Part shown: one piece after another, positions 24,411 to 46,371 of the stretch
Position numbering within the stretch: the stretch's first letter is position 1
How the letters are laid out: every line of letters begins with the position of its first letter
Source of the DNA: Pseudorhodobacter sp. MZDSW-24AT
Lineage (GTDB): Bacteria; Pseudomonadota; Alphaproteobacteria; Rhodobacterales; Rhodobacteraceae
Assembly (NCBI RefSeq): GCF_002794355.1
Contig: NZ_PGOI01000008.1
Span: forward strand, 124,001 to 188,000
Direction: 5' to 3'
Length of the DNA: 64,000 nt
Translations under genes and position numbers: made by a program
Notes under the pieces: model-generated
Database searches by the model: none
What the model saw: only the letters and a program-made list of their open reading frames with translations
What the model was told of the DNA's origin: nothing

Positions 24411-24434
24411 TCCTATCTTTGAAAGGACGACCCT

Positions 24435-26525: not shown

Positions 26526-26586
26526 TGATTTGCTGCACACGCCGCCTGTTTTTAATCCGAAGCACTAAAGACTCTTGGCGCCAAGG

Positions 26587-31571: not shown

Positions 31572-32012
31572 ATGACCGAAATTGGACGACTCAGCCAAGC
31601 CGATGGGCAATACGAATTCCGCGATCCAAGTCGAAACCTGATCGTCAGGGGTGGCCACCCGGAATGGGTGCTCATGGCAGCCGCAGAAGTGATCGCTAAC
31701 ACGGCGCGCCTTGAGGCGGAAAGCCTGCTCGAAGAGTTGTCTGCCCTGATGGAATTTGAGGCGGCCGAACCGATCGACGTGGATTCAGCACGTTTTTCCT
31801 TGAAAGAACGTTTCGAGCTGATCCCGCAATGCATCGTTTCCTTGGGAACGATGGACTATAAATGGGCTGCTGCGGAAGGTCGCGCGAAAAAAGCTGCAGA
31901 ATTCGGCGATCAGCCGCTGAAACGTGTCCATGACATGTCTCTGACGCGCTCAGACTCGTTTCTGACCAACGATCCAGGCATTTCTATGCCCGGTCTCGAC
32001 GTCTCTGAATAA
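31572..32012 (+). CDS. Hypothetical protein immediately upstream of pyp
   Basis: This 146-residue soluble protein begins at an ATG preceded by GGAAGGAG. It reads YEFRDPSRNLIVRGGHPEWV, then a helical stretch (AAAEVIANTARLEAESLLEEL) and a polar C-terminal tail (MSLTRSDSFLTNDPGISMPG). It lies 26 bases ahead of pyp and is probably in the same transcript. It has no membrane segment and no motif that I recognise. Its position suggests a partner of the light sensor or a gas-vesicle accessory protein, which is inference only. Confidence 0.65.
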   Translation: MTEIGRLSQADGQYEFRDPSRNLIVRGGHPEWVLMAAAEVIANTARLEAESLLEELSALMEFEAAEPIDVDSARFSLKERFELIPQCIVSLGTMDYKWAAAEGRAKKAAEFGDQPLKRVHDMSLTRSDSFLTNDPGISMPGLDVSE

Positions 32013-32038
32013 TTCCCTTCCAGCCTCGAGGACAAGCA

Positions 32039-32413
32039 ATGGAAATTATCCCTTTCGGCAGCCAAGATCTCGACAACATCTTGAACCGTGAACCGCAGCG
32101 TGCCGAGTATCTTCCCTTTGGTGCCGTGCTGCTCGACCGGTCGGGCAAAATCACGAAGTACAATAAGGCCGAAGGTCTGATCGCAAGCCGGACACCCGAA
32201 GACATGATTGGAAAGGATTTCTTCAACGACGTCGCCCCTTGCGCAAAAGGAAAGCGCTTCCATGGCGAGTTCTTGAAGTTCCACCGCACAGGACAGGTCA
32301 ACGTCATGTTTGATTACACATTCGCCTACAAGGGCGCCGATGTCGGTGTGAAGATCCACCTCAAATCACAACCCGATGGTCAGTACTGCTGGATGTTCGT
32401 CAAGCGCACGTAG
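32039..32413 (+). CDS. pyp: Photoactive yellow protein (blue-light PAS sensor)
   Basis: This 124-residue protein aligns end to end with photoactive yellow protein of Halorhodospira halophila (125 residues). The chromophore cysteine is kept (Cys68 in FFNDVAPCAKG, equivalent to Cys69), as are the chromophore-pocket Tyr41 and Glu45 (KYNKAEG, equivalent to Tyr42 and Glu46), Arg51 (Arg52), the MFDYTFAY strand and the C-terminal WMFVKR. At the position of Met100 this protein has glycine (Gly99), and at Thr50 it has alanine. Both should alter photocycle speed. PYP binds p-coumaric acid by a thioester and undergoes a blue-light photocycle. The ligase and ammonia-lyase for that chromophore are encoded nearby (33472 and 43246). 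It lies at the head of the gas-vesicle genes. Confidence 0.95.
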   Translation: MEIIPFGSQDLDNILNREPQRAEYLPFGAVLLDRSGKITKYNKAEGLIASRTPEDMIGKDFFNDVAPCAKGKRFHGEFLKFHRTGQVNVMFDYTFAYKGADVGVKIHLKSQPDGQYCWMFVKRT

Positions 32414-32431
32414 CAAATCCGGAGCTGTGGC

Positions 32432-32947
32432 ATGGCACCGGAGCGCGAAATCAATGTGGACGTCCACATCTCGGACACCTTGAAAAAGATGTACGACGGC
32501 GCGCCAAGAGCGCCCCACCCAAGCGCACAAACTGCCTTGCCGCTCTCCACCTTGCCCCCGCGTGATTGGCAACAGCTCTCGTTGCGACGCGATGGCAAAC
32601 CCCCGATCCGGTTTGTGGGAACCCTCCTCTTCGCGCGAAGCTGTATAATGCAGTCACTCAAGGGGCACGCCAAGCAGTCGCTGAGCATATACCTCGCGAT
32701 TGAGGGGACGGTTTACGCTGGCTTGGCATTTGAGCCGAGTGAGGCGTGTCCTGCTTGGTCTTCTTACCGTTGTGCCCCGCTTCACGCGCCCACTGACCTG
32801 GCCGAGTTGTTTCGCGACTGGTGTCCGGAGGCGAATTTTTTCCCGGCACCTTTGTCGGCTCACTGTGGAACAGGGCCACCGGCCGCCCGCTCCGCTTTCA
32901 ACGCGATGGCCGCAGACTGGCTGACCCTCTCTGTCCTGCAAGGATAA
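32432..32947 (+). CDS. Hypothetical protein, paralogue family near pyp (member B)
   Basis: This 171-residue protein starts 18 bases after pyp, with GGAG 7 bases ahead of the ATG. It shares the family layout of 30687 and 32958: RDGKPPIRFVGTLLF, a beta-strand segment (QSLSIYLAIEGTVYAGLAFE) and a PTDLAELFRDW helix. It has six cysteines, which is unusual for this neighbourhood. It has no membrane helix or signal peptide. The function is unknown, but the placement between pyp and the ligase makes a signalling role plausible. Confidence 0.6.
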   Translation: MAPEREINVDVHISDTLKKMYDGAPRAPHPSAQTALPLSTLPPRDWQQLSLRRDGKPPIRFVGTLLFARSCIMQSLKGHAKQSLSIYLAIEGTVYAGLAFEPSEACPAWSSYRCAPLHAPTDLAELFRDWCPEANFFPAPLSAHCGTGPPAARSAFNAMAADWLTLSVLQG

Positions 32948-32957
32948 GGATTCCAAT

Positions 32958-33467
32958 ATGTCTTCTATGACCGACCAACTGATGGCCGAACAACTCGCCC
33001 AGCACGGTACAATGCAGTTTGCGATAACAGCGCCGACATTTCGTATCAAACGCCCCGGCGCGCGCCCCCTGATTTTCGAAGGCGTTGAACTTGCTATGGC
33101 GATGAGTTTTACGCCGTCGCTGCCCAACTGGTATGAGGTAAATCTGTACAGAACAAGCGACCAGCGCTTTGTGGTGGCAGTTCGGCTGTTCTTTCAATCA
33201 GAGGCAGAACAAGATCAGATCCGCGCGTGGGATTTCGAGACACTGGACCAAGCTCTTGAAAAGCTTTCGCAATACGACGCGGGACAAGACGTCAGGGTTT
33301 CGCTAGATCAGGCCGATCTCTCTCTCCCGCCTGCGGAGTTGGCCGCGATGGCGCTCGAGTTGCGCGCGCGTGTGGATTCGGCACGGCGCCATTTCGCAAG
33401 CCTGCTGGGAGAGTTCTTCTTTGAGCTCGACACCATAAAAGTGCCGGTGCCGCGCGGCCGCGCCTGA
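32958..33467 (+). CDS. Hypothetical protein, paralogue family near pyp (member C)
   Basis: This 169-residue protein is 10 bases after member B. The core RPGARPLIFEGVELA, then YEVNLYRTSDQRFVVAVRLFF, then WDFETLDQALEKLSQYD is the clearest version of the family pattern. The C-terminal half is helical (ELAAMALELRARVDSARRHF). It is probably soluble and co-transcribed with pyp and the ligase. No known family is recognised. Confidence 0.62.
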   Translation: MSSMTDQLMAEQLAQHGTMQFAITAPTFRIKRPGARPLIFEGVELAMAMSFTPSLPNWYEVNLYRTSDQRFVVAVRLFFQSEAEQDQIRAWDFETLDQALEKLSQYDAGQDVRVSLDQADLSLPPAELAAMALELRARVDSARRHFASLLGEFFFELDTIKVPVPRGRA

Positions 33468-33471
33468 AAAG

Positions 33472-34749
33472 ATGCTGCGGAGAAGATGTAGAATGCTGCA
33501 GCCAAAGGCGCCCTCGAACTCGTGGTTAACGCGGACCATGCTGCGACGACTTGCGGCCAGTCTAATACTCGCGGAACAGGAGGACCTGGTTGCCAAAGGT
33601 CAATTGGAAAGGGGGGCGCTCGCAGTGCTGAAACGCCCTGCGGCACTCCACAATTCCTTCGACGCTGTGCGGATCGATGAAAGTGGATTGGGCTTTGATA
33701 GCCTGTCACGCCTGTCGCTCATCCTCAGATTTAACCGTTTTTTTCACCTGAATGATACCGGGATCGAGGACTACCTTTTGACGGCAACCTCGCTTGGGAA
33801 ATGGGTAACACTTCTCGACCAGCACTTACGCGCGATGGGGGATGGCGCGCGCTTCAGCTTCGCCACGTCCGGTTCAGCAGGTCCTGTAAAACACATCTGC
33901 CACAGTGTAAGCGACCTTGTCGAAGAAGTGCACTCGCTTCAGCGGCGTTTGCAAGACTGGATGCGCCCAAATGGACGCTTTTTGGCACTGGTGCCTCCGC
34001 ACCATATTTACGGGTTCTTGTTTACCTGCCTTCTCCCCAAGTTTGCAGGCATGCCGGTTGTCGACCTCCATCATGCTGGTCCCTGCGCCGCTTTCCGGCA
34101 TGCCCGCAGCGGCGATGTCTTGATCGGCACTCCATTTGTCTGGCGAACTCTTTGCGCCAGTGGTCTTACCTTCGCGCATGATGTGTTGGGCGTTACCTCT
34201 GCAGGAGCGGCCTGCTCCCAGACTTGGTCGACACGTGATATCAACGGTCTCGGCAAACTGATCGAAATTTACGGCTCGACTGAAACCGGTGGGATTGGCA
34301 CCCGCAGCGAACCTGGCGCAGCGTTTGAGCTCTTGGATCACCTTTGCCGTGCAAATGGAAATGACGAGGTGATTGCAGATGGCAAGCCATCCAAGCCGCT
34401 GCAAGATAAGTTGGAATGGCTTGGTCCACGACAGTTTCGGTTGCAGGGTCGGCGCGATGATGTCGTCAAGGTGGGTGGCGTGAATGTCTCGCCCTCCCAT
34501 GTGGAAGCGGTATTGCGTGCCTGCGAGGGTGTCTCTGCCGCATCTGTGCGGCTGGCAGGCGACAGAATGAAGGCCTTCGTGGTGCCGCGACCCGGCATTG
34601 TCCTGTCGAAACTTGAAGCCTTGCTGAACGCGCACATGCGGCGCCACCTGCAGGCACCCGCGCGCCCCGTGCAACTGACCTTTGGCGCTGAATTGCCTGT
34701 TAATGCAATGGGCAAAATCTGTGATTGGGACGCGGCACCCTCGGGATAG
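33472..34749 (+). CDS. pcl: AMP-forming acyl-CoA ligase, probably 4-coumarate:CoA ligase for PYP
   Basis: This 425-residue ANL-superfamily enzyme would activate p-coumarate to its CoA thioester for loading onto photoactive yellow protein. It shows the phosphate loop FATSGSAGPVKH, PPHHIYGFLFTCLLP, the YGSTETGG motif, GRRDDVVKVGGVNVSP and the C-terminal catalytic-lysine motif PVNAMGKICDW. It is shorter than plant 4CL enzymes, as expected for a PYP-specific ligase. Assignment to coumarate rests on its place next to pyp. The start could also be the ATG at 33493. It lies 4 bases after member C, in the same operon. Confidence 0.82.
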   Translation: MLRRRCRMLQPKAPSNSWLTRTMLRRLAASLILAEQEDLVAKGQLERGALAVLKRPAALHNSFDAVRIDESGLGFDSLSRLSLILRFNRFFHLNDTGIEDYLLTATSLGKWVTLLDQHLRAMGDGARFSFATSGSAGPVKHICHSVSDLVEEVHSLQRRLQDWMRPNGRFLALVPPHHIYGFLFTCLLPKFAGMPVVDLHHAGPCAAFRHARSGDVLIGTPFVWRTLCASGLTFAHDVLGVTSAGAACSQTWSTRDINGLGKLIEIYGSTETGGIGTRSEPGAAFELLDHLCRANGNDEVIADGKPSKPLQDKLEWLGPRQFRLQGRRDDVVKVGGVNVSPSHVEAVLRACEGVSAASVRLAGDRMKAFVVPRPGIVLSKLEALLNAHMRRHLQAPARPVQLTFGAELPVNAMGKICDWDAAPSG

Positions 34750-34821
34750 GTAACCAAACCTTAACTTCGATCAAAGAAGATCATCAGAGGACAGAATGGC
34801 CTTAGAAACTGAGATCACCCC

Positions 34822-35787
34822 GTGACAAAAAGCGACCCTCATCCGACCAGATCTTCAAGGCCACATCAGGCGTATCCGCTTGAGGCGGCCTACAACCCGT
34901 GGCGGGGCCTCTCAGACGCGCATCCGTTTTTCGAAAATGCAGAGATCTCCGCCATCATTACGCGCGCCGCCTTCTATGCGATCGGTGGAATCCCCGTGCA
35001 CTTCCAAGGAAGTGCGGGCCTCGGAAAGACGTCGCTTGCCTTGGCCATCGCACAAAGACTGGGACGTCCTGTCTCCTTTATGGCGGGCAATGATTGGCTT
35101 GGCGCGGAAGACATGATTGGAAAGGAAGTCGGCGTTACGACAAGCGCCGTCGTCGACAGATACATTCAGCGTGTGCGTCGCAGCGAGTCCCATACGCGGC
35201 AAGATTGGGCACCTTCAATTCTTGCCGAAGCGATGGAACAGGGGCGCACACTGATTTATGACGAATTCACCCGCTCCAGTGCAAAAGCCAACGGAATCCT
35301 TTTGTCTGTGTTGGAAGAGGGCATTTTGGTTACGACCAACCAGTCAAGCGCGCGCCGCATCCTGCAAGCTCACCCCGAATTCCGCATCATTCTGACGTCC
35401 AACCCGCATGACTATGCCGGGGTGAATTCTACACCTGACGCGCTGTTGGATCGCATGGTGACATTCAGCCTCGACAGCTATTCGGTCGAGACGCGTATTG
35501 GGCTCGTGGCCGCACGCACTGGCCTGCCCCTGTCAGTGTCTGCCCGCATCGTCCGTCTGACAGATGCTTTGCAAAAGCAAACGCAAGATGCCAACCGTTC
35601 TTCTTTGCGCTTAGCGATCCTCGTCGCGCGGATCGCCGCCATGCGGTTGCACAACGGCAACTTGTCCGACGCGCTTCTCGCCCAAATCACCGCCGATGTT
35701 TTCACCGGTCGCGGCTTTGGTGTGACCGCGGCGCAGATTGCCCGCCTTCTTTCCAGTGAACCAGAGCCACAGGAGGACGCCGCGTGA
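34822..35787 (+). CDS. gvpN: Gas vesicle protein GvpN (AAA+ ATPase)
   Basis: This 321-residue MoxR-like AAA+ ATPase is required for full-size gas vesicles. Walker A is GSAGLGKTS (residues 63-71), followed by the family-specific NDWLGAEDMIG, Walker B LIYDEFTR (about 143-150) and the sensor region ILTSNPHDYAGVN. The start is a GTG at 34822. The stop overlaps the next gene (GTGA). It is intact. Confidence 0.93.
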   Translation: MTKSDPHPTRSSRPHQAYPLEAAYNPWRGLSDAHPFFENAEISAIITRAAFYAIGGIPVHFQGSAGLGKTSLALAIAQRLGRPVSFMAGNDWLGAEDMIGKEVGVTTSAVVDRYIQRVRRSESHTRQDWAPSILAEAMEQGRTLIYDEFTRSSAKANGILLSVLEEGILVTTNQSSARRILQAHPEFRIILTSNPHDYAGVNSTPDALLDRMVTFSLDSYSVETRIGLVAARTGLPLSVSARIVRLTDALQKQTQDANRSSLRLAILVARIAAMRLHNGNLSDALLAQITADVFTGRGFGVTAAQIARLLSSEPEPQEDAA

Positions 35788-36008
35788 AGCGCCCCGTTTC
35801 CCAAACGCCCCGACGCCCACGTATGGCAGCGCCACGTGTCACCAGAACACGCAAGGAGGCAGCAATAGACCTCGTGCGCCTAGAATTCGACGCTGAGCGT
35901 TTGGACTCAGGCGTTCGTCAGGCACTCGGCCGCGCCTGTGTGTTTCAGGATGAGCTTGCCCGGAATCGTGCCCAGCGCGCGCGCTTGCTCGACCTGATTT
36001 CGCGATGA
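35784..36008 (+). CDS. Small basic protein between gvpN and gvpO
   Basis: This 74-residue protein is very rich in arginine at the N-terminus, with a helical second half (LVRLEFDAERLDSGVRQALG). Its GTG start overlaps the gvpN stop, which supports coupled translation. A shorter form could begin at the ATG at 35823. No Gvp family is matched. It may be an accessory factor unique to this lineage. Confidence 0.5.
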   Translation: MKRPVSQTPRRPRMAAPRVTRTRKEAAIDLVRLEFDAERLDSGVRQALGRACVFQDELARNRAQRARLLDLISR

Positions 36009-36027
36009 CGAACAAAAGAGTACTGAG

Positions 36028-36339
36028 ATGATGCATGAAGAAAGCGCCATCCCAGGGCAAAGCAAAGAATCACCCTCTCATCTGACGATGCGGGCTGCAA
36101 TCGGCATCGCCCGCGACACAGTGGCGAGCTTGACGGTCTTGTCCTTCGATTCCGTCGGGCAGTGCGAGCGTTGCGCTGATGGACGCTGGATGGTGCAGAT
36201 TGACGTCATCGAAAGCCCGGCCCGGATGGGGGATAACGATCTTCTCGCCACTTATGAGGTTGAAATTGGCGATGAAGGAGAACCGCTGAAGGTCAGTCGC
36301 CTGCGGCGGTATCATCGCGAGGATGAGGAGCAAGCATGA
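36028..36339 (+). CDS. gvpO: Gas vesicle protein GvpO
   Basis: This 103-residue protein has the GvpO pattern: an N-terminal helix (AAIGIARDTVASLTV), then GRWMVQIDVIESPARMGDNDLLATYEVEI and the C-terminal VSRLRRYHRED. GvpO is essential for vesicle formation in halophiles and is found in bacterial clusters. Its stop overlaps the gvpJ start (ATGA). Confidence 0.9.
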   Translation: MMHEESAIPGQSKESPSHLTMRAAIGIARDTVASLTVLSFDSVGQCERCADGRWMVQIDVIESPARMGDNDLLATYEVEIGDEGEPLKVSRLRRYHREDEEQA

Positions 36340-36701
36340 CCCACGATGTTCGAAGTGCAGCCCGCAGCGATGGTTTGGCCGATGTGCTCGAACGTATCCT
36401 CGACAAGGGCATCGTCATCGCGGGGGATGTCAGTGTGTCCCTTGTGGGGATCGAGCTTCTGACCATTCGCCTGCGCCTTCTGATCGCCACCGTGGGCCGC
36501 GCTAAAGAAATGGGGATCGATTGGTGGGAGCGCGACCCACGCCTTTACGCGCGGTCAGACCGTGACTTCGGCAGCGAAACAGAGGCCGAAAGGCTTCAAC
36601 ACGAAAACACCGCCCTGCGTGAGCGCATTGAAGCTTTGGAACGTTTGCTCCCCCCGGCTGAAGGCGTCTCACTCCGGCGCAACTCTGTGGTGCCAGCATG
36701 A
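36336..36701 (+). CDS. gvpJ: GvpA-family protein, GvpJ type
   Basis: This 121-residue member of the GvpA family has a conserved core at residues 12-62 (LADVLERILDKGIVIAGDVS, then SLVGIELLTIRLRLLIATV). An extended C-terminal coiled segment follows (ERLQHENTALRERIEALERLL). The extension distinguishes it from the structural GvpA at 43024 and fits GvpJ, a minor component implicated in initiating assembly. It overlaps both neighbours by 4 bases (coupled translation). Confidence 0.88.
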   Translation: MTHDVRSAARSDGLADVLERILDKGIVIAGDVSVSLVGIELLTIRLRLLIATVGRAKEMGIDWWERDPRLYARSDRDFGSETEAERLQHENTALRERIEALERLLPPAEGVSLRRNSVVPA

Positions 36702-37189
36702 AACTCGGCACCAATAAGACATTTAACCGAAGCGAACCATGGGTGCCGTTCCGCGCTGCAGCTTTGTATGACGGTTTTGACACAAGCGCTTCGGCAAACG
36801 CCGCGCCCTCCTCGCGAGCATTGGACCGAACAAGATCTTGGCTTGATCGGGCCCTTCGCTCCCTCTTCAGCGTTGTGCTTTTTCCGATTGCGTGGCCTGA
36901 GCGCCGTCTCTTTGTTGTTCAAAACACCGAAATGCCTCTGCCTGGCGGCGCACTCAGCGACGTGACAGGAGAAAAAAGTTTATATGTGGCATATGCCTTC
37001 GGCCTTTTGCCGACTGACTGTCCCTCATTCCATGCCGCTGACAAAAAGTCCGCCACGGCTTCGGGCCACAATCTGCCCAAACTGGGGTCGGACGCCGAAG
37101 GCCTCGTCAGGGTTCGTCTTCGTAACCCGCTCCATTCCTGCCCGACTACCACGCTACCGCGCGGCACTGCAGCGAAAGAGGTAAGATGA
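36698..37189 (+). CDS. Hypothetical protein coupled between gvpJ and gvpF
   Basis: This 163-residue frame overlaps the gvpJ stop and the gvpF start by ATGA junctions at both ends. That is strong evidence of a translated gene. The sequence is unusual, with an arginine-rich middle and a hydrophobic stretch (LRSLFSVVLFPIAW). I see no resemblance to any Gvp family. Composition is less GC-biased than its neighbours. It could be a fast-evolving accessory protein or a decayed gene kept for coupling. Confidence 0.5.
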   Translation: MKLGTNKTFNRSEPWVPFRAAALYDGFDTSASANAAPSSRALDRTRSWLDRALRSLFSVVLFPIAWPERRLFVVQNTEMPLPGGALSDVTGEKSLYVAYAFGLLPTDCPSFHAADKKSATASGHNLPKLGSDAEGLVRVRLRNPLHSCPTTTLPRGTAAKEVR

Positions 37190-37956
37190 TTTACCTTTAC
37201 GCCCTTATCGAAGATCCCTTGCCTGGCTTTAAGGCGACCCTTCAATCTCTTACGGGGTTGCAAGGCCGCGTGCAGCTGCATCCCATCGGGCCGTGGCAAC
37301 TGGTCTTTTCCGAACATGGTAAGGATGCAATCTTGCCCAAGCGCCCAGATCTGCTTACCCACACCCGCGTTCTTGAACAGTTAATGCCTTTCGGCACGCA
37401 GTTGCCCGCCCGTTTCGGTATGGCAGTCGAAGACATCGGTGCGGTTGAGCGGATGATCCGGGCAAAATCCGCGCTGCTTGCAGAGCAGTTCACGCGGGTG
37501 CGCGGCTGTATCGAACTTGGCATCCGCATCCGATTTGCGCGGCCTCTGGCTCTCGGCGCAACACTTGCCGACGATGCGCGGCTCATCCGTGAGCGCGATC
37601 GGTTGGCCCGCCTCGGACCGGACGCACAACTGGCATGGGCCGAGTTCGGCGGAAAGCTCGCTGACCGTCTTGATCGGCGCCGCGGCGCCGCGCAACAGGC
37701 GCTGTGCCGCAAGTTGTTACCCTTGTGCCGGGCGCATGTGCTTCGGGTACCGGAAGAAGATGTTGAGGTGCTGCGTGCCGAATTCCTGCTACCCGCCGAG
37801 GGTCAGTCAGCCTTTCTTACGGCGGTAGAGGAAGCCGCGGCCCAGCTAGACTTCGCTCCAGGCGCTGCGCCAGAAATCAAGGCCGTGGGACCCGTGCCAG
37901 TCTACAACTTTGTGCGGCTCAATCTGATGCAAGACGACAGTGAGGAGGTCACATAA
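37186..37956 (+). CDS. gvpF: Gas vesicle protein GvpF/GvpL family (1)
   Basis: This 256-residue GvpL/GvpF-family protein has the diagnostic start MIYLYALIEDPLPGF. The middle is LPARFGMAVEDIGAVERMI with an ELGIRIRF strand, and the C-terminus is VGPVPVYNFVRLNL. GvpF and GvpL bind GvpA and form part of the assembly machinery. The stop overlaps the gvpG ATG by one base. This is one of four family members in the locus. Confidence 0.9.
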   Translation: MIYLYALIEDPLPGFKATLQSLTGLQGRVQLHPIGPWQLVFSEHGKDAILPKRPDLLTHTRVLEQLMPFGTQLPARFGMAVEDIGAVERMIRAKSALLAEQFTRVRGCIELGIRIRFARPLALGATLADDARLIRERDRLARLGPDAQLAWAEFGGKLADRLDRRRGAAQQALCRKLLPLCRAHVLRVPEEDVEVLRAEFLLPAEGQSAFLTAVEEAAAQLDFAPGAAPEIKAVGPVPVYNFVRLNLMQDDSEEVT

Positions 37957-38186
37957 TGGGCTTGTTGCGCAGATTGCTCACATTTCCGATAAGTGCTCCC
38001 GTCAACAGTGTTTTTTGGATCGCAGGTCAGCTCCACAACGCTGCCTTGGCTGAAGTCAATGATCCTGCCACGTTGCGCCGCGCCTTGGTCGATCTCGAAC
38101 AGGACCTTTTGGAAGGTCGGATCGACGAAGAGACCTATGATGCGGCCGAAACCCGCATCCTCTCCCGCTTGCAGGGGATGACATGA
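37956..38186 (+). CDS. gvpG: Gas vesicle protein GvpG
   Basis: This 76-residue protein is typical of GvpG: MGLLRRLLTFPISAPVNSVF, then ALVDLEQDLLEGRIDEETYDAAETRILSRL. GvpG is a small helical chaperone-like component of the cluster. The start overlaps the gvpF stop, and its own stop overlaps the next ATG (ATGATG). Confidence 0.93.
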   Translation: MGLLRRLLTFPISAPVNSVFWIAGQLHNAALAEVNDPATLRRALVDLEQDLLEGRIDEETYDAAETRILSRLQGMT

Positions 38187-38533
38187 TGCGCATTTCTTTG
38201 ACGACTGAAACCCTTGCAAACAATAGCCCGATCGTCAGCTTTGCGCACTTGTCGCGTGCTGCGATCGTTTGGTCTGGTTCAGATCAAAAGGGCGCGACAT
38301 TGGCCCCACTGCCCTCGCGGGCTGATGCACAATCAATGCCTTTTCCCCCTGCGGCGCTCAATCATTGCAAGCGAGATGCACCTTTGCAGCTTTCTTCGCG
38401 CGCGCAGAGCAAGCGTTGGCATCAACCGTCGCCAGCAACGATGTTACCACAGTTGCTTCACGGCCTCGCCGCACTGTGTACGCAAGACTTCGAATTTATC
38501 TCCACCGACGGAGACGCGCATGCACATCTATGA
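38183..38533 (+). CDS. Hypothetical protein coupled between gvpG and gvpL
   Basis: This 116-residue frame overlaps gvpG by 4 bases and the following GvpL-family gene by 14. It resembles the frame at 36698 in position only. The sequence is low in family features (ALNHCKRDAPLQLSSRAQSK). It is either a lineage-specific accessory gene or spacer DNA that happens to be open. The coupled start favours a real gene; the composition does not. Confidence is limited. Confidence 0.38.
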   Translation: MMRISLTTETLANNSPIVSFAHLSRAAIVWSGSDQKGATLAPLPSRADAQSMPFPPAALNHCKRDAPLQLSSRAQSKRWHQPSPATMLPQLLHGLAALCTQDFEFISTDGDAHAHL

Positions 38534-39455
38534 TCTGATCGGCGTTCTGGACGGAACCCATACAACACCGCCCCACCCAGAAATTCGATTGCTGCCCGAG
38601 GCAGGCATGACCGCAGTACTGTCACCTCGGTCCTCGTGCGATGCTACGCTCCCAACGGACCAAACCAGCTGCTTGTCCGAGGCCGCGCGCCGCTTGGCGT
38701 TGCAAGAATCCTGCCTACCGCTTTCGACGCTTTTGCCAGTTCAGCGCACATACGGACTCACGCAGTTGCAGGCGCGACGTTTCCTTTCGGCAAATCAACC
38801 TTTTCTGGCAAACCTCCTTCGTCGTCATGCCGGTCTTGTCCAAGTTCAGGTCACGGTGCGTTGGCAAGAGGAGGTCGCGCTCGACCATTTCCGGAACCAC
38901 CCCGCCATAAGGCCGCTCTTCGCTCTTGCGCGACTCAATTCAAAAAATGTCATCGATGCGGTCACCGAGCTGTCTGCCGATCTTTGCCGGCAGATCGAAG
39001 GTTATCTTCTGCCAGAAGCAACGGAGCGGATCGCACTGCCCGTGACCAGGTCGATCCTTTGGAATGGGGTACTGCTGTTGCCCTTGGGCAGGCTTTCCGA
39101 CCTCGACGACGCCATTGAGCAGATCGACGCCATCTGGAGCGACGGGTTTGCGATCAGCCAAATCGGCCCCGCACCGATCGCCTCCTTTGCCCTTGTCACT
39201 CTCGAAACAGTGACGCCGGCGCAAGTGGCACAGGCGAATGCGACCTTTCGCACAGCGCCGTCAATTCAGTGGGGCCTGCGTGCTGGCCTAAAGGCGGCAG
39301 GCCAAAACGCAGAAAAGCGAGACTCTATACGTCTGCTCGCCCGCATTGCCGAAGCGGCAGCACGCTTGCCGACTCCGGAAGAAGGGCTTTCATTGGCTGG
39401 CCTGCGCACTGAAGGTCACTCCATCGCCAACAATGCGCAGCAAGCGGTGGCCTAG
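38520..39455 (+). CDS. gvpL: Gas vesicle protein GvpF/GvpL family (2)
   Basis: This 311-residue member begins MHIYDLIGVLDGTHT, with GGAG 6 bases ahead of the ATG at 38520. It has a typical central ARLNSKNVIDAVTEL and a C-terminal WNGVLLLPLGRLSDLDDAIEQI with a second beta-sheet region. It is longer than the other paralogues. The long open frame upstream of 38520 overlaps gvpG and is not used. It is followed by another GvpF/L gene 2 bases later. Confidence 0.8.
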   Translation: MHIYDLIGVLDGTHTTPPHPEIRLLPEAGMTAVLSPRSSCDATLPTDQTSCLSEAARRLALQESCLPLSTLLPVQRTYGLTQLQARRFLSANQPFLANLLRRHAGLVQVQVTVRWQEEVALDHFRNHPAIRPLFALARLNSKNVIDAVTELSADLCRQIEGYLLPEATERIALPVTRSILWNGVLLLPLGRLSDLDDAIEQIDAIWSDGFAISQIGPAPIASFALVTLETVTPAQVAQANATFRTAPSIQWGLRAGLKAAGQNAEKRDSIRLLARIAEAAARLPTPEEGLSLAGLRTEGHSIANNAQQAVA

Positions 39456-39457
39456 GA

Positions 39458-40162
39458 ATGCCTGAAATCCTCCTGCATGGGTTCGTGCTGCCCGAATGCC
39501 CCTGCCCAACGGACGCCCCCCCACACGAGCGCGTGAGCAGTCGCGCGATCACCGCGCTAAGCACCGTCGCGCCTGCGGACTTTGCCACATATGGCGCGGA
39601 TGACATGGCAGTGGCGGTTCTCGCGCATCACGCACTGCTTCAAGCCTATTGTCTGAAAGGGCCAGTCTTGCCTGCGCGCTTTGGCAGCTTGTTTTCCTCT
39701 CGCACCGCCTTGGCCACCCATTTGGAAGACCTTGCGACCGGCATCACCCAAGCACTGCACGCGTTAAGCTGTGTTGAAGAGTTTACCCTTAGATTGAGCG
39801 TCGCTGCAGAGGTGGATCAGCCTCGCCCTCAGATCGAGTCGGGCCGGGAATATCTGGCACGTGGTCGAGAGCACCGTGCTGGGCGCGCAGCGCTGACGGT
39901 TCGGCGTGCAGCCTTACAGCGCGAGATCTCTGCAGCCTTGCTGCCGCGCGCCCTACAGGTCGAAACCAGCCCCACATCTCGGCCAGACCGACTGCTTGAT
40001 GTGGCTATTCTGCTTCGAAAGGCCGATGTGCCAGACCTTCACTCCATGGTCCAGCGCTTTGGACCCGCTGCTGAGGAGCTTCATCTAGAGCTTTCCTTCA
40101 GCGGACCATGGCCCGCCTACAGCTACCGCCCATCGATTGCAGAGCTGTGCGATGGCCCTTGA
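39458..40162 (+). CDS. Gas vesicle protein GvpF/GvpL family (3)
   Basis: This 234-residue member shows MPEILLHGFVLPECPC at the start, VLPARFGSLFSSRTALATHL in the middle and LELSFSGPWPAYSYRPS at the end, all family motifs. It lies 2 bases after the previous gene and overlaps the next (GvpS/M-like) start by 11 bases. It is part of the assembly machinery by family assignment. Confidence 0.88.
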   Translation: MPEILLHGFVLPECPCPTDAPPHERVSSRAITALSTVAPADFATYGADDMAVAVLAHHALLQAYCLKGPVLPARFGSLFSSRTALATHLEDLATGITQALHALSCVEEFTLRLSVAAEVDQPRPQIESGREYLARGREHRAGRAALTVRRAALQREISAALLPRALQVETSPTSRPDRLLDVAILLRKADVPDLHSMVQRFGPAAEELHLELSFSGPWPAYSYRPSIAELCDGP

Positions 40163-40364
40163 TCTTCAATATGCCACACCGGGCGAAGTGCTCGGGTCCA
40201 CGCAGACAACGCTTGTCGAGTTGGTTGATGGTCTGCTCACGCATGGTGTCGTCTTGCGCGCCGAACTTTGGCTCACCGTCGCAGATGTCGACCTCGTGTT
40301 TATCGGGGCCGACCTGTTGTTGACGTCTCCCCAGAAGATGCGCAAAGATCGGAGTTGCATATGA
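40152..40364 (+). CDS. gvpS: GvpA-family minor protein (GvpS/GvpM type)
   Basis: This 70-residue protein has the GvpA-family core: TLVELVDGLLTHGVVLRAEL, then WLTVADVDLVFIGADLLLTS. The ATG at 40152 gives MALDLQYATPGEV. It differs from the structural GvpA at 43024 and from GvpJ, which fits the minor GvpM/GvpS class. Its stop overlaps the next ATG (ATGA). The symbol is provisional. Confidence 0.82.
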   Translation: MALDLQYATPGEVLGSTQTTLVELVDGLLTHGVVLRAELWLTVADVDLVFIGADLLLTSPQKMRKDRSCI

Positions 40365-40990
40365 TCGCTCTTGGCTGGTGCCGCCCGACCTGTCACCCCC
40401 CGCTTCCGATGACACTACGTCCATGCGGAAAAGTGGCGGTACTTTGCACAGATTTTGTCGGCGCAGCACGAGACCGTCTGTCATGGCAGCAGCAAGCCTT
40501 TGACGACGGGATAGACCTTTTGCCTTTGGCTCCGGGCCCCATCTGGCAGGCGGAAGAAGTCTGCAAGTTCACGCAGTCAGCGGCGGATGATCTCGACACA
40601 AAGCTTGCGGATCTTGCTGGGCAGTGTCAGGCGACGCTCACTCTCCACTGGTCTGCTTCCGTCATGCTCTGTCCCCCCGATGGTTCGGGGCGCGACTGGT
40701 TGCGGAAGGTCACGCGGCAACACCGTGACACACAGATGCAAAAAGACCGCGCGGCTGAATTGTTTGCCAAGCTGATCACCTTCCAGCCCGCACAGCAAGG
40801 TAAGCTGCGCTATGGGCCGAGCAGCCTAAGCCAAAGCCTGCTTCTGGCCCGTGCCGACTTTGCGGATTTCCGGCATTACCTGCAGGAGACGGCCTCAGCG
40901 GATAGCGGCATTTCCATATGTCTGACAGGCCCTTGGCCCGCATTCGAGTTTGTTGGTGCACCGCTGTCTCACAGTGAGGTGCTGGCATGA
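40361..40990 (+). CDS. Gas vesicle protein GvpF/GvpL family (4)
   Basis: This 209-residue member is recognised from the C-terminal SICLTGPWPAFEFVG, the LTLHWSAS strand and the helical RHYLQETASADSG segment. It is the most divergent of the four family copies here. The start overlaps the upstream stop, and the stop overlaps gvpK (ATGA). Confidence 0.78.
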   Translation: MIALGWCRPTCHPPLPMTLRPCGKVAVLCTDFVGAARDRLSWQQQAFDDGIDLLPLAPGPIWQAEEVCKFTQSAADDLDTKLADLAGQCQATLTLHWSASVMLCPPDGSGRDWLRKVTRQHRDTQMQKDRAAELFAKLITFQPAQQGKLRYGPSSLSQSLLLARADFADFRHYLQETASADSGISICLTGPWPAFEFVGAPLSHSEVLA

Positions 40991-41316
40991 CCGATGCGCT
41001 TTCGCTCAACCCGGATCATGTGCGATCGCTGCTGTCAAAAGTGGTCCCGCCCGATGGACGCCTGCGGCTCAATCCCAATTCGGCAGAGCAAGACCTGGCA
41101 AAGCTGGTGCTAGGCGTTGTTGCATTTTTACGACAGCTGATGGAGTTGCAAGCGATCCGCCAGATGGAAGCTGGCCTTCTCACCCCCGAGCAAGAGGAAG
41201 CCGTTGGAACCACACTGATGCGCAGCGAAGCGGCCCTGCATCAAATCGCTGCGGCATTCGGCCTAGCCCCGGGTGATCTGGCGCTTGATCTCGGCCCTCT
41301 CGGACGCACGATTTAA
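40987..41316 (+). CDS. gvpK: Gas vesicle protein GvpK
   Basis: This 109-residue protein has the GvpK pattern: GRLRLNPNSAEQDLAKLVLG, then LRQLMELQAIRQMEAGLLTPEQEE and GLAPGDLALDLGPLGRT. It is an accessory protein needed for vesicle formation. The start overlaps the previous gene. The next gene begins 3 bases later. Confidence 0.94.
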   Translation: MTDALSLNPDHVRSLLSKVVPPDGRLRLNPNSAEQDLAKLVLGVVAFLRQLMELQAIRQMEAGLLTPEQEEAVGTTLMRSEAALHQIAAAFGLAPGDLALDLGPLGRTI

Positions 41317-41319
41317 CAC

Positions 41320-42885
41320 ATGGAGCGCCTTGATGTGCAGATCCGCTCGATGACGATTGGTGCACCTGACACGGTCCCGACGACAGAGCTCCCCGAGCAC
41401 GATGATCTGGACCTTGGCTTTGATGCCCTGATCCGCCGCTATGCCACCCACAGACTTGCTGACCCCGCAGCATTAAGTCGCCTGCGGCCAGATCTGACTC
41501 CTCTGATCGCACCGCCCGAAGTGGTTTTTGCCGCTTATCTCGCGGATGGCTCGATCGTGCTTTGCTGTCCTGAAGGTGTCCCGCTTGAACTGTCCGGCGT
41601 GGTGCATGTGCTCTCTCCACTGCGTGAGCCTCCCCTCCCTGTGCGCCAGATCGAAATTCCGCACGTTCTCACCAAGCTGGACGAGATAAGCCTGCGGCTT
41701 GACCAATTTCAACGCGCTCAGGGAGACGGTGCCGATATCGTCGCGCGGCTAGAAGACGTCAAAACTGCGCTGATCAGCGGGTTGCGCCGCGCTGAGGCCG
41801 CGGCCACGTCCGGTCCGCCGGCTTCGAGTCTTCTGGAGCAGGTGCGGCATCACTTTACAGACTTCGAAGAACGCCTGCTGGTTCATTTAAACCAGACGCA
41901 AACGGTACAGTCTCTTGGTCTGCAAATTGCGCAAATCGACCATGGCGTGCACCGTTTGCTGGCGCAGGCACCCGATCAGGCGAAAATCCTTGAAAAGATG
42001 GTGCAGCTGAACCAGGACATCGCGGACATCGGATCCGGCCGCATCAGCCAGATCGAACTTCTGCAGGCGAGGCAAGAGCTTGCGCAGTTTTTTGAAGCCC
42101 TGAACACGGGGTTGCGTCGCCTTGACAACACAGTGGACCGCTTGGAAACTCCGTCTGCGGACCCAAGACTAGACGAAATTCATGCTCAGTTGGCCACATT
42201 TGGTGCGCAGATCGATGGCTCACGCAAGGCTGCGATCGCCATCGAAGCGCTCTCACGCACAGTTGGCGCGCTGCAAAGCAGCATGGACACCGCCTGCCGA
42301 CTCATCGCGTCGACACCGGAGGCCCTGGTCAGGGTGTCAGACCAGTTGCAGGCATTGGCCCAGCGGCCCGACCCGGTTCTGGACCTCACCGCGCAACGCC
42401 AAAGTTTTGCGCAATTCGCGACTGTGCTGCACCACATCGTCGAGCGGATCGAAAGCGCCGTCCAGACTGTCGAGAACGATCAGGGCGGCGTTCAATTCCT
42501 GGAAGCACTGCATGGCTTGCGCAAAGATCTTGAGGCACCGCTTTCGCGACTCCCCGAGGCGCTTGACGCAATCTCCGATCTCAGCTGGCAGCTCAAAGAG
42601 GCCGTTGATCGTCCCCCTCCCGTGCCGGACCTGACGCTTCACCGTCAAAGTGTTGCTCAAATTGCAATCGCCCTCCGCGCGGGTCTTCAGCGCTTGGAAG
42701 ACCGGACCGAAGGCATTCACGACGCAGCCCGCAATGTGCAGGATATGACGGTGCAGGCGATCTTTGCTTTGCTCGCCAGCCAACTCAAAACGGGCGCCGC
42801 TCCGGAAACACAGCGGCTCGCGTTGGCTGAAGCGCTGGCCAGTGCCCTAGCTGGCGTTGGCTGGACACCGGCATCGGTAAAGTAG
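41320..42885 (+). CDS. Large coiled-coil protein at the end of the gvp operon
   Basis: This is a 521-residue soluble protein. Residues 1-105 may form a small domain with beta content (VVFAAYLADGSIVLCCPEGV). From about 110 to the end it is long helices with heptad-like spacing (LTKLDEISLRLDQFQRAQ, LLEKMVQLNQDIADI, FFEALNTGLRRLDNTVDRL). It has no membrane segments and no 33-residue GvpC repeats. It is 3 bases after gvpK. A stiff rod of this size could strengthen, tether or nucleate vesicles. No known family is recognised, and the structural role is a guess. Confidence 0.65.
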   Translation: MERLDVQIRSMTIGAPDTVPTTELPEHDDLDLGFDALIRRYATHRLADPAALSRLRPDLTPLIAPPEVVFAAYLADGSIVLCCPEGVPLELSGVVHVLSPLREPPLPVRQIEIPHVLTKLDEISLRLDQFQRAQGDGADIVARLEDVKTALISGLRRAEAAATSGPPASSLLEQVRHHFTDFEERLLVHLNQTQTVQSLGLQIAQIDHGVHRLLAQAPDQAKILEKMVQLNQDIADIGSGRISQIELLQARQELAQFFEALNTGLRRLDNTVDRLETPSADPRLDEIHAQLATFGAQIDGSRKAAIAIEALSRTVGALQSSMDTACRLIASTPEALVRVSDQLQALAQRPDPVLDLTAQRQSFAQFATVLHHIVERIESAVQTVENDQGGVQFLEALHGLRKDLEAPLSRLPEALDAISDLSWQLKEAVDRPPPVPDLTLHRQSVAQIAIALRAGLQRLEDRTEGIHDAARNVQDMTVQAIFALLASQLKTGAAPETQRLALAEALASALAGVGWTPASVK

Positions 42886-42916
42886 GCCAGATGCTTCACA
42901 TTTTTTGTATTCTGCT

Positions 42917-42980
42917 GGGCTCGGCCAGAAGTCTGATAAGAGTCTTTTAGAGGTGCAGAAGTAGCCTGTTGACCGAGCCC
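42917..42980 (+). promoter_or_regulatory. Possible long-range stem in the gvpA leader
   Basis: GGGCTCGGCC at 42917 can pair with GACCGAGCCC at 42971, 9 of 10 positions, with about 44 bases between. It lies 44-107 bases upstream of gvpA. It may be a transcript-end or leader structure protecting the abundant gvpA mRNA. It is weak evidence by itself. Confidence 0.35.
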
Positions 42981-43023
42981 ATCCGAGGGGGCTTGAACTT
43001 CAACCGTGCACGGAGAGTACATC

Positions 43024-43236
43024 ATGGCCATCGAAAAAAACATTGCATCTGCCTCCATCGCCGAAGTCGTGGACCGCATTCTGGACAAGGGTGTCGTGAT
43101 TGATGCCTTTGTCCGCATCTCGCTGGTGGGGATCGAATTGGTCGCAATTGAAATCCGGGCGGTTGTCGCCTCGGTTGAGACCTGGCTGAAATATGCTGAA
43201 GCGGTCGGCCTCACCTTGGACCCGACAACGGCCTGA
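43024..43236 (+). CDS. gvpA: Major gas vesicle structural protein GvpA
   Basis: This 70-residue protein forms the ribbed vesicle wall. It shows [20 protein letters not shown], then [20 protein letters not shown] and [13 protein letters not shown], nearly canonical for GvpA. The ATG at 43024 has GGAG 8 bases upstream. It is set apart from the rest of the cluster by 138 bases with a possible leader structure. That fits a separate strong promoter. It is convergent with the ammonia-lyase gene. Confidence 0.96.
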
Positions 43237-43245
43237 GGTGCGCCC

Positions 43246-44826
43246 CTAGGGGTCGGGCGGGTCAGTCCGGGTGAGTGCGTGTGACAACAACTCGATCTCC
43301 CGCCCCAAAGGTCGATCGGTTTGCAGCGCCGGGCTAAGCGCACGCACCATCCGCCGCAGTCCTTGTGCAGAACGGCTAAAGCCAAGATCAGGATCAAAAA
43401 GATCGAGAATATCCATCGCTTGCACGACGGCTAACGCCAGAATGGCCTGTATTTGCGAAAGTGTTGTGAGCTTATCAGAAAGGTGACGCGCAGCAATGGT
43501 GCCCATCGACACCACATCCTGATTGGCACCATTGGTCGAGATGGAATGCACCGATGCGGGGCCAATGCTGCGCGCTTCCGCCAAAAGGGCTGTCGCGGTA
43601 ACCTGCGCGCCCATCAAGCCGGAATTAAGCCCGCCCGCCCCGCGATGCAGAAATGCCGGAAGACCTTGGTTCAGCGCTTCGTCGGTCACGCGTGCCACTT
43701 GCCGTTCGGCCAGTCCCGCAAGGACCACGACCGCATTCGCAAGCGCGTCCGATGCGAGGCCGACATGCTGGCCCATGAAATTGCCACCGTGAAGCGCGAA
43801 CGCTTCAGGTGCATCAGGAAAAATGGGATTATCTGTTGCGGAGAGCAGTTCAACCACCACAATTTCATCATGCCAGTGGGCCGTGTCCCGGACCGCACCA
43901 ATGATTTGCGGTGCACAGCGCAGCGTATAGGCATCTTGCCCGGCAAGGCTTTCGGTGGCGGGCACAAGCCCCAGAAGGCGCCGATCGCAAAGGCGGCCGG
44001 CCTTTAGCCGTTTGCTGCCCTGCACTCTGGCGCGCAGGTCTTCCGCGATCGATTGCTGACCGGGATGCGGACGCACTTCGGAAAACACCGCATCCCATGC
44101 TTCAACCCGCGCAGACTGCACCTCGGCCAAAGCGGCTGTCAGCGTCACCGCCCAATCAATCGCGCGGTGCATGGCCAAAGCGTTGAGCACCGCAATGCCA
44201 GTCATCGCCGAGGTTCCGTTGACCAGTGCCAAACCGTCTCTCTGCGACAGATCAAGCGCTGGCAAGGCCATCTCGGCAAGCGCCGCTGTGGCTGGAACAC
44301 GACGCTCATCCGGCAGCAGGAATTCCCCCTGGCCTTGGAAGCACAAAACCATATGTGCCAAAGGCGTCAGATCGCCCGATGCCCCTACTGTCCCCTTGCT
44401 GGGGATGACCGGAGCAAAACGCGCATTGAGCAAGGCAACCAGCGCGTTCACGGTTGGCAGGGATGCGCCGGAAACACCCTGCAAGATTGACATCAAACGC
44501 GCGAGCACGATGGCGCGCGCTTGGCGCCAGCTGAAATGTGGGCCGATCCCCGTCGCGAGGTGATTCACAAGATTTTGCTGCAGCATTGCGCCTTCGGCAG
44601 GATCCACCAACCGATTGGCCAACGGTCCGAAACCCGTCGTGATGCCATAGATATGCCGCTGCTCGGCAATGAGCCGAGCAAGACGCGCGTGCGCTGCGCC
44701 ACACCTTTCTATTGCCGACGGAGTCAGTGCAATTTTGCTGACACCGTCAGCCACGTGCACCGCATCCGCAAGAGAAAGGTGGCGATCGACAAGAATGGTT
44801 TGGGCGATTAACTGACGAAGATGCAT
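43246..44826 (-). CDS. tal: Tyrosine ammonia-lyase (PYP chromophore biosynthesis)
   Basis: This 526-residue MIO-type aromatic ammonia-lyase converts tyrosine to p-coumarate. The MIO-forming Ala-Ser-Gly is at residues 149-151 (GTVGASGDLTPL). The substrate-selectivity pair is His89-Leu90 (NLVNHLATG), as in Rhodobacter TAL; histidine lyases have Ser-His and phenylalanine lyases Phe-Leu at this place. The ATG at 44826 has AGGGA upstream and gives the same residue numbering as Rhodobacter TAL; a second ATG at 44841 is possible. It is convergent with gvpA and supplies the chromophore for pyp. Without the His-Leu pair it would be called histidine ammonia-lyase. Confidence 0.9.
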   Translation of the reverse strand: MHLRQLIAQTILVDRHLSLADAVHVADGVSKIALTPSAIERCGAAHARLARLIAEQRHIYGITTGFGPLANRLVDPAEGAMLQQNLVNHLATGIGPHFSWRQARAIVLARLMSILQGVSGASLPTVNALVALLNARFAPVIPSKGTVGASGDLTPLAHMVLCFQGQGEFLLPDERRVPATAALAEMALPALDLSQRDGLALVNGTSAMTGIAVLNALAMHRAIDWAVTLTAALAEVQSARVEAWDAVFSEVRPHPGQQSIAEDLRARVQGSKRLKAGRLCDRRLLGLVPATESLAGQDAYTLRCAPQIIGAVRDTAHWHDEIVVVELLSATDNPIFPDAPEAFALHGGNFMGQHVGLASDALANAVVVLAGLAERQVARVTDEALNQGLPAFLHRGAGGLNSGLMGAQVTATALLAEARSIGPASVHSISTNGANQDVVSMGTIAARHLSDKLTTLSQIQAILALAVVQAMDILDLFDPDLGFSRSAQGLRRMVRALSPALQTDRPLGREIELLSHALTRTDPPDP

Positions 44827-44919
44827 AGGCAGGTCCCTCATGAACGTCTGCGCAGGCTACCTCAGTCTTGGTTAACCAGGGTTTAAGCCTCAAAAGGGCG
44901 TTCGCTCCCCTGTTGCACT

Positions 44920-46371
44920 TTATGGGACCGGGCAAAGGGGCGGCTGCTGGACAAGCCGGACAAGGTCGAGCACCGGAGTGGCAAGGCTGAGGGAACCTTG
45001 TTTCAATTGAACCAGCGGCTCTTCTTGACCACCGGCAAGCGGAAGTGCTTCCAGACGCCACTCCGCAGTTTCGATGCTGAACACTTTTTCAACCAAAAAA
45101 CCGACCTGTTCGCGTGTCTCACCGGTCAGCAGAACACGCGCCATGTCGGTTTCGCCGGGGGGGCGACCCAGCAAAGACACAAGATCGACCAGAGGGACAG
45201 ACCAAGGCGCGCGTGCAAAATATCCCAGCACCCCAGTCTCCGGACGATGGCAAGGCACAAGATGGGAGGGAATGGGGATGATGCCCGTCACTTGTTCAAG
45301 AGGAATAGCGAAGGTGCGCCCGGCTTGCACCAACAAGTAACGGCTGCCCCCTTGTCGGCGGACGGCTTCGCGACCTTCGACGGCAACGGGATCGGAAGTC
45401 AGGCCCGCAATGGCTCTGATGCCCGGATCGTTGGTCAAATTTTCGACGGACAAGACAAACACTTGCCCTGCATCCTCACGCAAGATGACTTGGGTCAAGA
45501 ACCCCGTTTTACGCGCGATCATCTTTGGCACCTCGGCATGGCGCCGCAAATCGATGCGCTGAATGTCAAGAATGCCGTCAACCGCGAGTCCGATCAGTCG
45601 CGCGTCGGGACAGCGCAGGATCACCACCTCGGAGGCAGCCCATCGGTCTCGCTGACCAAGGCCGAGCACATCGACCGTGTTCAGCACCGGCACCCTGCGC
45701 TGGTGATAGCTGATGGACCCCAGACAATAGCCCGAAGTCAGGGCGCCGGTATCAATGTTTTGGCGAGGCACGGTGCCGTAGACATCGCTCGCTTCAACGC
45801 AAAAGCGCGCCCCGCCAACCGTAAAGGTCAGCATCGGTGTCCGGCCATCCTCGACAGAACTGGGCTGGCTTTTCGGCGGCAGCGCGGCAGAGTAGACGCC
45901 CGGCAGGGCGAAGAGTTGGTCCACATCAAGGATCGAGACAGTCTTGCCATCTTCGATAAAGACCTGACGCACGCAAAGCGGCTGGTCCGAACGCATTCCT
46001 TCCGAAAGAATTTGTACCTTTTCGGGCGCCACCCGACTGATGCCCTGCACCTGATCGACGAGAAAGGCCATGTGCCGATCACCGAGACGCAAGACCACGG
46101 CAAAACTGGCGGGGTGTGATGGCGCAGGTAGGCCGCACAGAGCGCGCATGTCGATCACCGGGATCAACTGACCCCGCAGGTCAATCCCGCCACACAAAAA
46201 CGAGGCTTGCAAAAGCAATGGCGATAAACCGTTGATCTGGCACACTTCTGATAGAGCGCCGATCGGCACGCCCACCCACACATCCTTTAATCGGCAAATA
46301 CCAAGGCACAATTCGCCCGAAGGCGCGGGCTTGGCCTCCGTTCCCGGGATAAGCGGGACAGACTCAGGCAT
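44920..46371 (-). CDS. Triple CheW-domain chemotaxis adaptor
   Basis: This 483-residue protein contains three CheW-type domains in tandem (about residues 20-150, 180-315 and 335-475), each with the beta-barrel pattern. Examples are [31 protein letters not shown] and [15 protein letters not shown], then [11 protein letters not shown]. Single-domain CheW couples receptors to the CheA kinase. A three-domain form may scaffold several receptor or kinase contacts. The gene overlaps the chemoreceptor gene by 8 bases, so both are co-translated. No CheA is in the window. Confidence 0.88.

Follow-up and report, generated by a model that had tools for sequence, protein, structure and literature searches.

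Photoactive yellow protein (PYP) is encoded close to a gas-vesicle (gvp) gene cluster in Rhodobacter capsulatus SB1003 and in Loktanella sp. SE62 (PMC3646047, citing Kyndt et al. 2004). The excerpt of that account available to us names neither a chemoreceptor paired with a triple-CheW protein nor companion genes of PYP. A survey of December 2025 calls the signal transduction chain of PYP an important gap and enters the function of both the R. capsulatus and the R. sphaeroides protein as unknown (PMC12826048, Table 1); the available main text of the survey contains 'gas vesicle', 'gvp' and 'CheW' nowhere, and its Table 2 counts 12 fusions of PYP with methyl-accepting chemotaxis proteins (MCPs). 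Here we describe a pyp/gvp locus of Pseudorhodobacter sp. MZDSW-24AT (label G000), which lies in a window of 64,000 nucleotides (NZ_PGOI01000008.1, positions 124,001-188,000; positions below are those of the whole window), part of a 774 kb contig in a genome of 3.86 Mb. As in R. capsulatus and Loktanella, PYP is encoded close to the gvp cluster, a linkage that an earlier note on this DNA (the original prediction) rightly took as established. Besides this known pairing of sensor and vesicle, the locus holds two PYP-linked companions, ORF31494 and U169, and a soluble multi-PAS MCP with a triple-CheW protein (CheW3). Within the literature searched, the receptor/triple-CheW branch at this locus and the two companions are new; in the open-access literature (titles and abstract openings) no link between gas vesicles and a chemoreceptor or CheW was recognised for Rhodobacter among the matches listed.

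With a confidence that stays somewhat below even, we interpret the locus as a module for vertical positioning, informed by light and energy, in a phototrophic Rhodobacteraceae species. Tyrosine ammonia-lyase (TAL) and 4-coumarate-CoA ligase would make p-coumaroyl-CoA, which loads PYP, and PYP excited by blue light would act via ORF31494 and U169, either on the assembly of vesicles or on the expression of gvp. The soluble PAS-containing MCP, held on the triple-CheW scaffold, would feed a cytoplasmic signal (redox, oxygen or ligand) to the CheA of the genome. Buoyancy and swimming would then be set together, with CtrA-type control as their common transcriptional input. The locus thereby gives a short list of testable genes for the PYP signalling gap (ORF31494, U169, MCP and CheW3) and opens the possibility of buoyancy being steered by chemoreceptor hardware. 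The tuning of buoyancy by blue light, which the original prediction proposed, is a putative step of this reading.

The predicted production of holo-PYP from the genes of the locus finds good support in the families to which they belong. PYP scores 177.2 bits against TIGR02373 (equivalog cut-off 143.05), has H. halophila-type PYPs as its best PDB matches and retains Tyr41, Glu45, Arg51 and Cys68 (equivalents of Tyr42, Glu46, Arg52 and Cys69), the residues originally read as kept. Compared with H. halophila PYP, it carries Ala at the position of Thr50 and Gly at that of Met100, as do 4/4 relatives compared. For R. capsulatus PYP the survey gives 435/375 nm and a recovery of 1 ms (PMC12826048, Table 1), and a single peak at 446 nm is therefore not to be assumed for the PYP of the window. 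The acyl-CoA ligase expected near gvpN is encoded directly upstream of that gene and reaches 385.5 bits against TIGR02372 (equivalog cut-off 334.7). TAL, too, stands where it had been placed, next to gvpA and convergent with it, the two stop codons being 9 bases apart. Its best PDB match is 2o6y, the R. sphaeroides enzyme (571 bits); it keeps the His at which chain 2o78, matching elsewhere, deviates, as well as the Leu that follows, and its Ala-Ser-Gly aligns where the PDB chain shows a modified residue. We take His89-Leu90 to be the selectivity pair and Ala-Ser-Gly to be the triad that forms the 4-methylideneimidazole-5-one (MIO) group. As TAL stays below every equivalog cut-off of NCBIfam, it owes its name to the match with 2o6y. 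The genome encodes a second, more distant TAL homologue (37% identity).

Between ligase and TAL we recognise 11 gvp-family genes (N, O, J-type, F, G, three further F/L, a small GvpA-type, K and A), with three unassigned open reading frames (ORFs; 74, 163 and 521 aa) among them. The chromophore set does bracket the gvp cluster, as had been claimed, but the claimed count of 20 genes does not hold. Genes of the A, J/M, F/L, G, K, N and O types occur together, GvpN scoring below its NCBIfam cut-off; gvpA shares 80-90% identity with six relatives and 71% with that of genome G386. Our family sample comprised 394 Rhodobacteraceae genomes, about one per genus. Strong gvp, defined as a GvpA-family match with best E below 1e-15, was found in 7/394, while a looser threshold of E<=0.001 gives 13/394, and the family cut-off is exceeded in 9. 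The GvpA-family matches in G168, G217, G220, G321, G371 and G377 (best E 1.7e-5) were treated as not being gas-vesicle genes, although G377 and G217 do exceed the family cut-off. PYP was found in 5/394 genomes, and all five belong to the seven with strong gvp (hypergeometric 2.7e-10, a figure that, like the 5.2e-7 given below, overstates the case because adjacency in related genomes is not independent evidence). The co-occurrence of pyp and gvp is not chance.

A close known system without a PYP match is the gvp and tal locus of a Cereibacter (Rhodobacter) sphaeroides genome (G051, C5:660001-690000), whose TAL matches PDB 2o6y apart from the modified residue. As in the window, tal is convergent with gvpA and all 11 gvp genes have matches; a CtrA-type site is likewise present, but upstream of gvpN. 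In contrast to the window, the 30 kb read there contain no match to MCP, CheW3, ORF31494, U169 or the ligase, and searches of the whole genome gave no match to PYP, ORF31494 or U169 and none to MCP or CheW3 at the thresholds used. R. sphaeroides PYP is listed in PMC12826048. Its absence from our G051 results may reflect a strain difference, a stretch absent from the sequence searched or a search miss, and would change the count of PYP-negative genomes.

The most informative candidate for an output is the MCP/triple-CheW pair, which lies beyond the stretch covered by the original prediction. The minus-strand run whose last gene is tal extends past 44826 into the genes for CheW3 and MCP, and the order MCP, CheW3, tal is operon-like: MCP and CheW3 overlap by 8 bases, and 78 bases separate CheW3 from tal. 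MCP has the PF00015 signalling domain with an intact kinase-binding hairpin tip, and five Pfam PAS stretches. It is without an evident transmembrane segment, as its highest 19-residue mean hydropathy is 1.66. CheW3 has three CheW domains; in the alignment, only domain 1 of the window protein shows the LRG-type motif, whose Arg we take to be the receptor-binding one. No CheA, CheR or CheB is present among the locus genes run against Pfam, and the CheA match of the genome lies on another contig. In the family sample, MCP (E<=1e-70) occurs in 9/394 genomes and triple CheW (E<=1e-15) in 13/394. The pair stands beside gvp in 4/7 strong-gvp genomes (G000, G144, G253 and G332), all four with PYP; G051 and G386, neither with a PYP match, yielded no MCP/CheW3 pair at these thresholds. 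A search of genome contigs with MCP led to one further locus, in Rhodobacter sp. KR11, where MCP, CheW3, TAL and a convergent gvpA are arranged as in the window (the 22.8 kb compared stop short of the pyp position). In G253 pyp lies about 158 kb from gvp, whereas gvpN has the pair next to it; the pair therefore goes with gvp, not with pyp. The MCP match of G386 was rejected as a chemoreceptor and its row omitted from the tree, since the protein proved to be a PAS histidine kinase that carries a receiver; near its gvp genes G386 encodes a PAS hybrid histidine kinase. For the stretches shown of three plasmid gvp clusters, those of Octadecabacter arcticus, Methylosinus and Spartinivicinus, the gene table, which is incomplete, annotates neither an MCP nor a CheW; the Methylosinus stretch does encode a PAS protein along with a response regulator.

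A maximum-likelihood tree of 14 MCPs divides them seven against seven with support 100/100. One side holds the five gvp-flanking rows (G000, G144, G253, G332 and KR11) together with G158 and G140, and the other side seven pairs from other surroundings. The CheW3 tree brings the same seven rows together at 90/97. Because both trees have midpoint roots only, the division counts as a split rather than a proven clade. Strong gvp is present in 4/6 sampled genomes of the MCP group (hypergeometric 5.2e-7, to be read with the caution given above). Absent from the trees are the MCP match of G017 and the CheW3 matches of G153 and G293; in the alignment, the N-terminal domain of the G253 CheW3 is misread because that row begins at a late start. 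In G158 a PYP-type TAL, truncated by the end of the contig, begins next to the pair. G140 shows ORF30, ORF31 and a 70-aa N-terminal piece of ORF31494, followed by an MCP lacking its N-terminal part and by CheW3. We infer that G158 and G140 are broken loci, G140 probably the remnant of one deletion in a locus of the pyp/gvp type.

Related pairs are known from other settings. Those of Ruegeria sp. TM1040 and of the Novosphingobium plasmid pNL2 comprise the same two proteins, encoded either adjacently or at a distance of two genes, but they share only 22-35% identity with those of the window and fall on the opposite side of the 100/100 branch. On the Ruegeria megaplasmid (L041 6489-7863), CheR and CheD genes lie between the PAS protein and the triple CheW, which hints that pairs of this kind can make up a unit capable of adaptation without a CheA of their own. 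In the cytoplasmic arrays of R. sphaeroides (TlpT, CheW4, CheA3/A4; PMC3964821) the receptor is soluble as well, and the MCP of the window could cluster with CheW and CheA in the cytoplasm in a similar way. However, the TlpT operon, as described in the part of that source available, has its own CheA proteins, whereas none was found among the locus genes of the window, and the CheW encoded here is triple.

The two companions track PYP, not gvp. Searches for them covered 75 genomes, namely the key ones and a hand-picked, non-random spread of the 394 and of the genus. The ORF31494 profile matches 7/75, that is 5/5 PYP genomes and 2/70 others (the remnant in G140, and G008); the U169 profile matches 5/75, exactly the five PYP genomes, and 0/70 others. 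As both are absent from G051 and G386, the two strong-gvp genomes without a PYP match, they follow PYP rather than gvp. ORF31494, with 40 invariant columns across five homologues, is a candidate signalling or maturation partner of PYP. The suggestion that the unnamed genes form the missing output path gains support for ORF31494 and U169. Neither matches a family over cut-off (U169 reaches 18.8 bits against EXLDI, cut-off 32), PDB profile searches with both gave nothing significant (best ORF31494 match E 0.072), and neither has a match in a collection of plasmid records, four of which carry PYPs of 41-45% identity. Alternatively, ORF31494 and U169 could be chromophore-loading or PYP-stability factors instead of signalling partners. 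Their co-occurrence with PYP would fit this, and in G008 an ORF31494 homologue lies between the TAL and ligase genes where no PYP was found; published apo-PYPs, however, load from activated p-coumarate and are not known to need such factors, and we consider a loading or stability role rather unlikely, though a serious contender. G008 is 82% complete, and its 10 kb contig (L068 2333-8363) has TAL, the ORF31494 homologue, ligase and an MCP with a NIT domain side by side; the end of the contig encodes what looks like a long coiled-coil protein. This MCP is a second chemoreceptor type next to a PYP-chromophore gene set.

The strongest rival to a positioning module is simple co-location: pyp, gvp and MCP/CheW3 would share a life in the water column, travel together and be regulated together, without PYP controlling vesicles and with MCP serving ordinary flagellar chemotaxis. 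An island, which would suit this rival, fits the patchy distribution of PYP and the lower G+C of the stretch. A remnant of a tyrosine recombinase or phage integrase (28865-29128; 25.4 bits, cut-off 27.1) lies between an arginine operon and the pyp locus, a tRNA-Glu lies at 11625-11699, G+C is lower over about 12-49 kb than in most of the flanks, and PYP occurs in 1/16 genomes of the genus, which together suggest an island. The distance between pyp and gvp in G253 fits co-location as well, as do the MCP/CheW3 pairs found without gvp and the presence of flagellin and CheA in the genome of the window. On the other hand, the MCP/CheW3 group is almost confined to these loci, G144 retains it without a flagellin match, and in the window and in KR11 the pair runs together with tal. 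On balance we hold co-location without signalling to be the less probable account, yet one with a sizeable share of the probability.

Several observations weigh against the vertical-positioning reading. In G083 pyp, gvp and tal are present and the MCP/CheW3 pair lies on another contig, outside the gvp-linked group, so that a locus of this type does not require it. G158 and G140, two of the seven rows of the group, yielded no match to gvp or PYP. Pairs of the other branch occur in G128, G077 and G039 without a gvp match, and in Ruegeria sp. TM1040 and on pNL2 with neither gvp nor pyp annotated nearby; occurring away from gvp, they indicate that such a pair also works without buoyancy. No TAL match at E<=1e-60 was found in G144 and G253, both with PYP; these two may take up p-coumarate or use another lyase. 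To this are added the overstatement in the hypergeometric figures and the fact that the interaction, expression and phenotype steps are predictions made from sequence only.

A further rival has PYP signal directly through MCP and triple CheW, with MCP as the transducer of PYP, like the Htr of sensory rhodopsin. The linkage of the pair to the pyp/tal locus agrees with it, and precedents exist in the PYP-MCP fusions (PMC12826048) and in Ppr of Rhodocista centenaria, a PYP-phytochrome-kinase protein whose kinase domain binds CheW according to the available part of PMC2993699; this binding is the nearest biochemical precedent met. Yet the pair of G253 is with gvp and not with pyp, G083 has PYP without a gvp-linked pair, and the available Table 2 of the survey gives no operon number for MCP. 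We regard direct signalling as improbable. Elsewhere, moreover, inactivation of pyp reportedly left photomovement unaltered. A combined scheme, in which PYP, ORF31494 and U169 would act on a dedicated cytoplasmic MCP/CheW3 complex that controls the assembly or the number of vesicles instead of, or in addition to, the flagellum, seems to us just as doubtful; if true, it would amount to chemoreceptor-controlled buoyancy.

The genes of the locus are arranged as follows.

29743..30690, minus strand: ORF30, 315 aa, only the C-terminal ~55 aa strongly conserved; no Pfam or NCBIfam match
30687..31382, minus strand: ORF31, distant relative of U169 (profile comparison 96% probability, E 2.7e-9)
31572..32012, plus strand: ORF31494, PYP companion, 146 aa counted from the conserved ATG
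32039..32413, plus strand: pyp, 124 aa (TIGR02373, key residues)
32432..32947, plus strand: U171, unassigned; tblastn homologue only in G332 among the loci compared
32958..33467, plus strand: U169, PYP companion, in 5/5 PYP genomes
33472..34749, plus strand: pcl, 4-coumarate-CoA ligase (TIGR02372)
34822..35787, plus strand: gvpN (AAA_5; TIGR02640 236.6 bits, below cut-off 266.8)
36028..36339, plus strand: gvpO (PF05800)
36336..36701, plus strand: gvpJ-type gene of the GvpA family (PF00741)
37186..37956, plus strand: gvpF (PF06386, 145.5 bits)
37956..38186, plus strand: gvpG (PF05120)
38520..39455, plus strand: second gvpF/L (PF06386), start codon picked by reading
39458..40162, plus strand: third gvpF/L (PF06386)
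40137..40364, plus strand: small GvpA-family gene, S/M type (PF00741)
40361..40990, plus strand: fourth gvpF/L (PF06386)
40987..41316, plus strand: gvpK (PF05121)
41320..42885, plus strand: CC521, 521 aa, probably coiled coil; tblastn homologues in KR11 and, weakly, G083; no family over cut-off
43030..43236, plus strand: gvpA, major shell protein (NF006874 over cut-off)
43246..44841, minus strand: tal, tyrosine ammonia-lyase, start possibly at 44826 (PDB 2o6y match)
44872..44886: CtrA-type site TTAA-N7-TTAA, 31 bases upstream of the tal ORF
44920..46371, minus strand: CheW3, triple-CheW protein, 483 aa (PF01584, three stretches)
46364..49171, minus strand: soluble multi-PAS MCP, 935 aa (5 PAS stretches and MCPsignal)

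The plus-strand run extends over 31572-43236 in the order ORF31494, pyp, U171, U169, pcl, gvpN, an ORF of 74 aa, gvpO, the gvpJ-type gene, an ORF of 163 aa, gvpF and gvpG, followed by two gvpF/L genes, the small GvpA-type gene, the last gvpF/L, gvpK, CC521 and gvpA; from ORF31494 through pcl the gaps are at most 26 bases. ORF30 homologues lie near pyp or gvp genes in G332, G144, G253 and G083, and one is present in G140. U171 was considered as a third member of the U169/ORF31 family and rejected (5.7% probability). A gene for a CDC48-type AAA ATPase stands in the gvp cluster of KR11 (L009 20520-22550) and in that of Methylosinus (L070 11658-13838); none is among the cluster genes of the window.

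Putative CtrA control would tie the locus to the swimming apparatus. The exact sequence TTAA-N7-TTAA, which we take to be the CtrA consensus, occurs once in the window, at the tal site listed above. Among 17 sequences (453 kb including the window), spacing 7 gave 7 exact sites and the other 15 spacings between 0 and 15 together gave 1. In the window and in KR11 an exact site stands upstream of tal, in KR11 and G253 one follows gvpK closely, and G051 has one upstream of gvpN; two more lie about 2 kb beyond the ligase in G253 and, unrelated to gvp, in G128. CtrA-type sites thus recur in these loci. Allowing one mismatch, the window holds 6 against 2.2 expected (3/100 shuffles as high), and the CtrA half-site TTAACCAT was not found. 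FNR-like palindromes with two mismatches number 27 against 16.4 expected (1/100 shuffles as high) and are spread over the window. A scan of the window gave fewer promoter-like sites than shuffles do (1 against a shuffle mean of 4.8) and no excess of terminator-like sites (15 against 19.5 in shuffles). In R. capsulatus, gas-vesicle and flagellar genes are over-represented in one co-expression module, which with two others makes up 84% of the CtrA regulon (PMC4158056); FnrL represses several gas-vesicle genes, directly or indirectly (PMC4634722), and all 10 gas-vesicle genes examined fall in photosynthetic growth (PMC5643017).

Reaction-centre genes are present in 12/14 genomes, including G000, G051, G083, G144, G253, G332, G386, G158 and G140, and CheA in 12/12 genomes examined. 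The genome of the window has one CheA match, in an operon on another contig that by reading also encodes CheW, CheR and receiver proteins, and it has flagellin; the G144 counterpart of this operon was confirmed by Pfam. G144 combines the receptor pair and CheA with no flagellin match, flagellin being the one flagellar family searched, and G158 and G140 have only short flagellin matches (41-44 residues). These findings are suggestive of a non-flagellar output there, not decisive.

A few kb before the pyp locus, at 22193-27318, the window carries an operon of the arginine deiminase type, with a DcuC-family carrier, arginine deiminase, ornithine carbamoyltransferase and an amino-acid kinase that reads as carbamate kinase; a Crp/Fnr-type regulator accompanies the operon.

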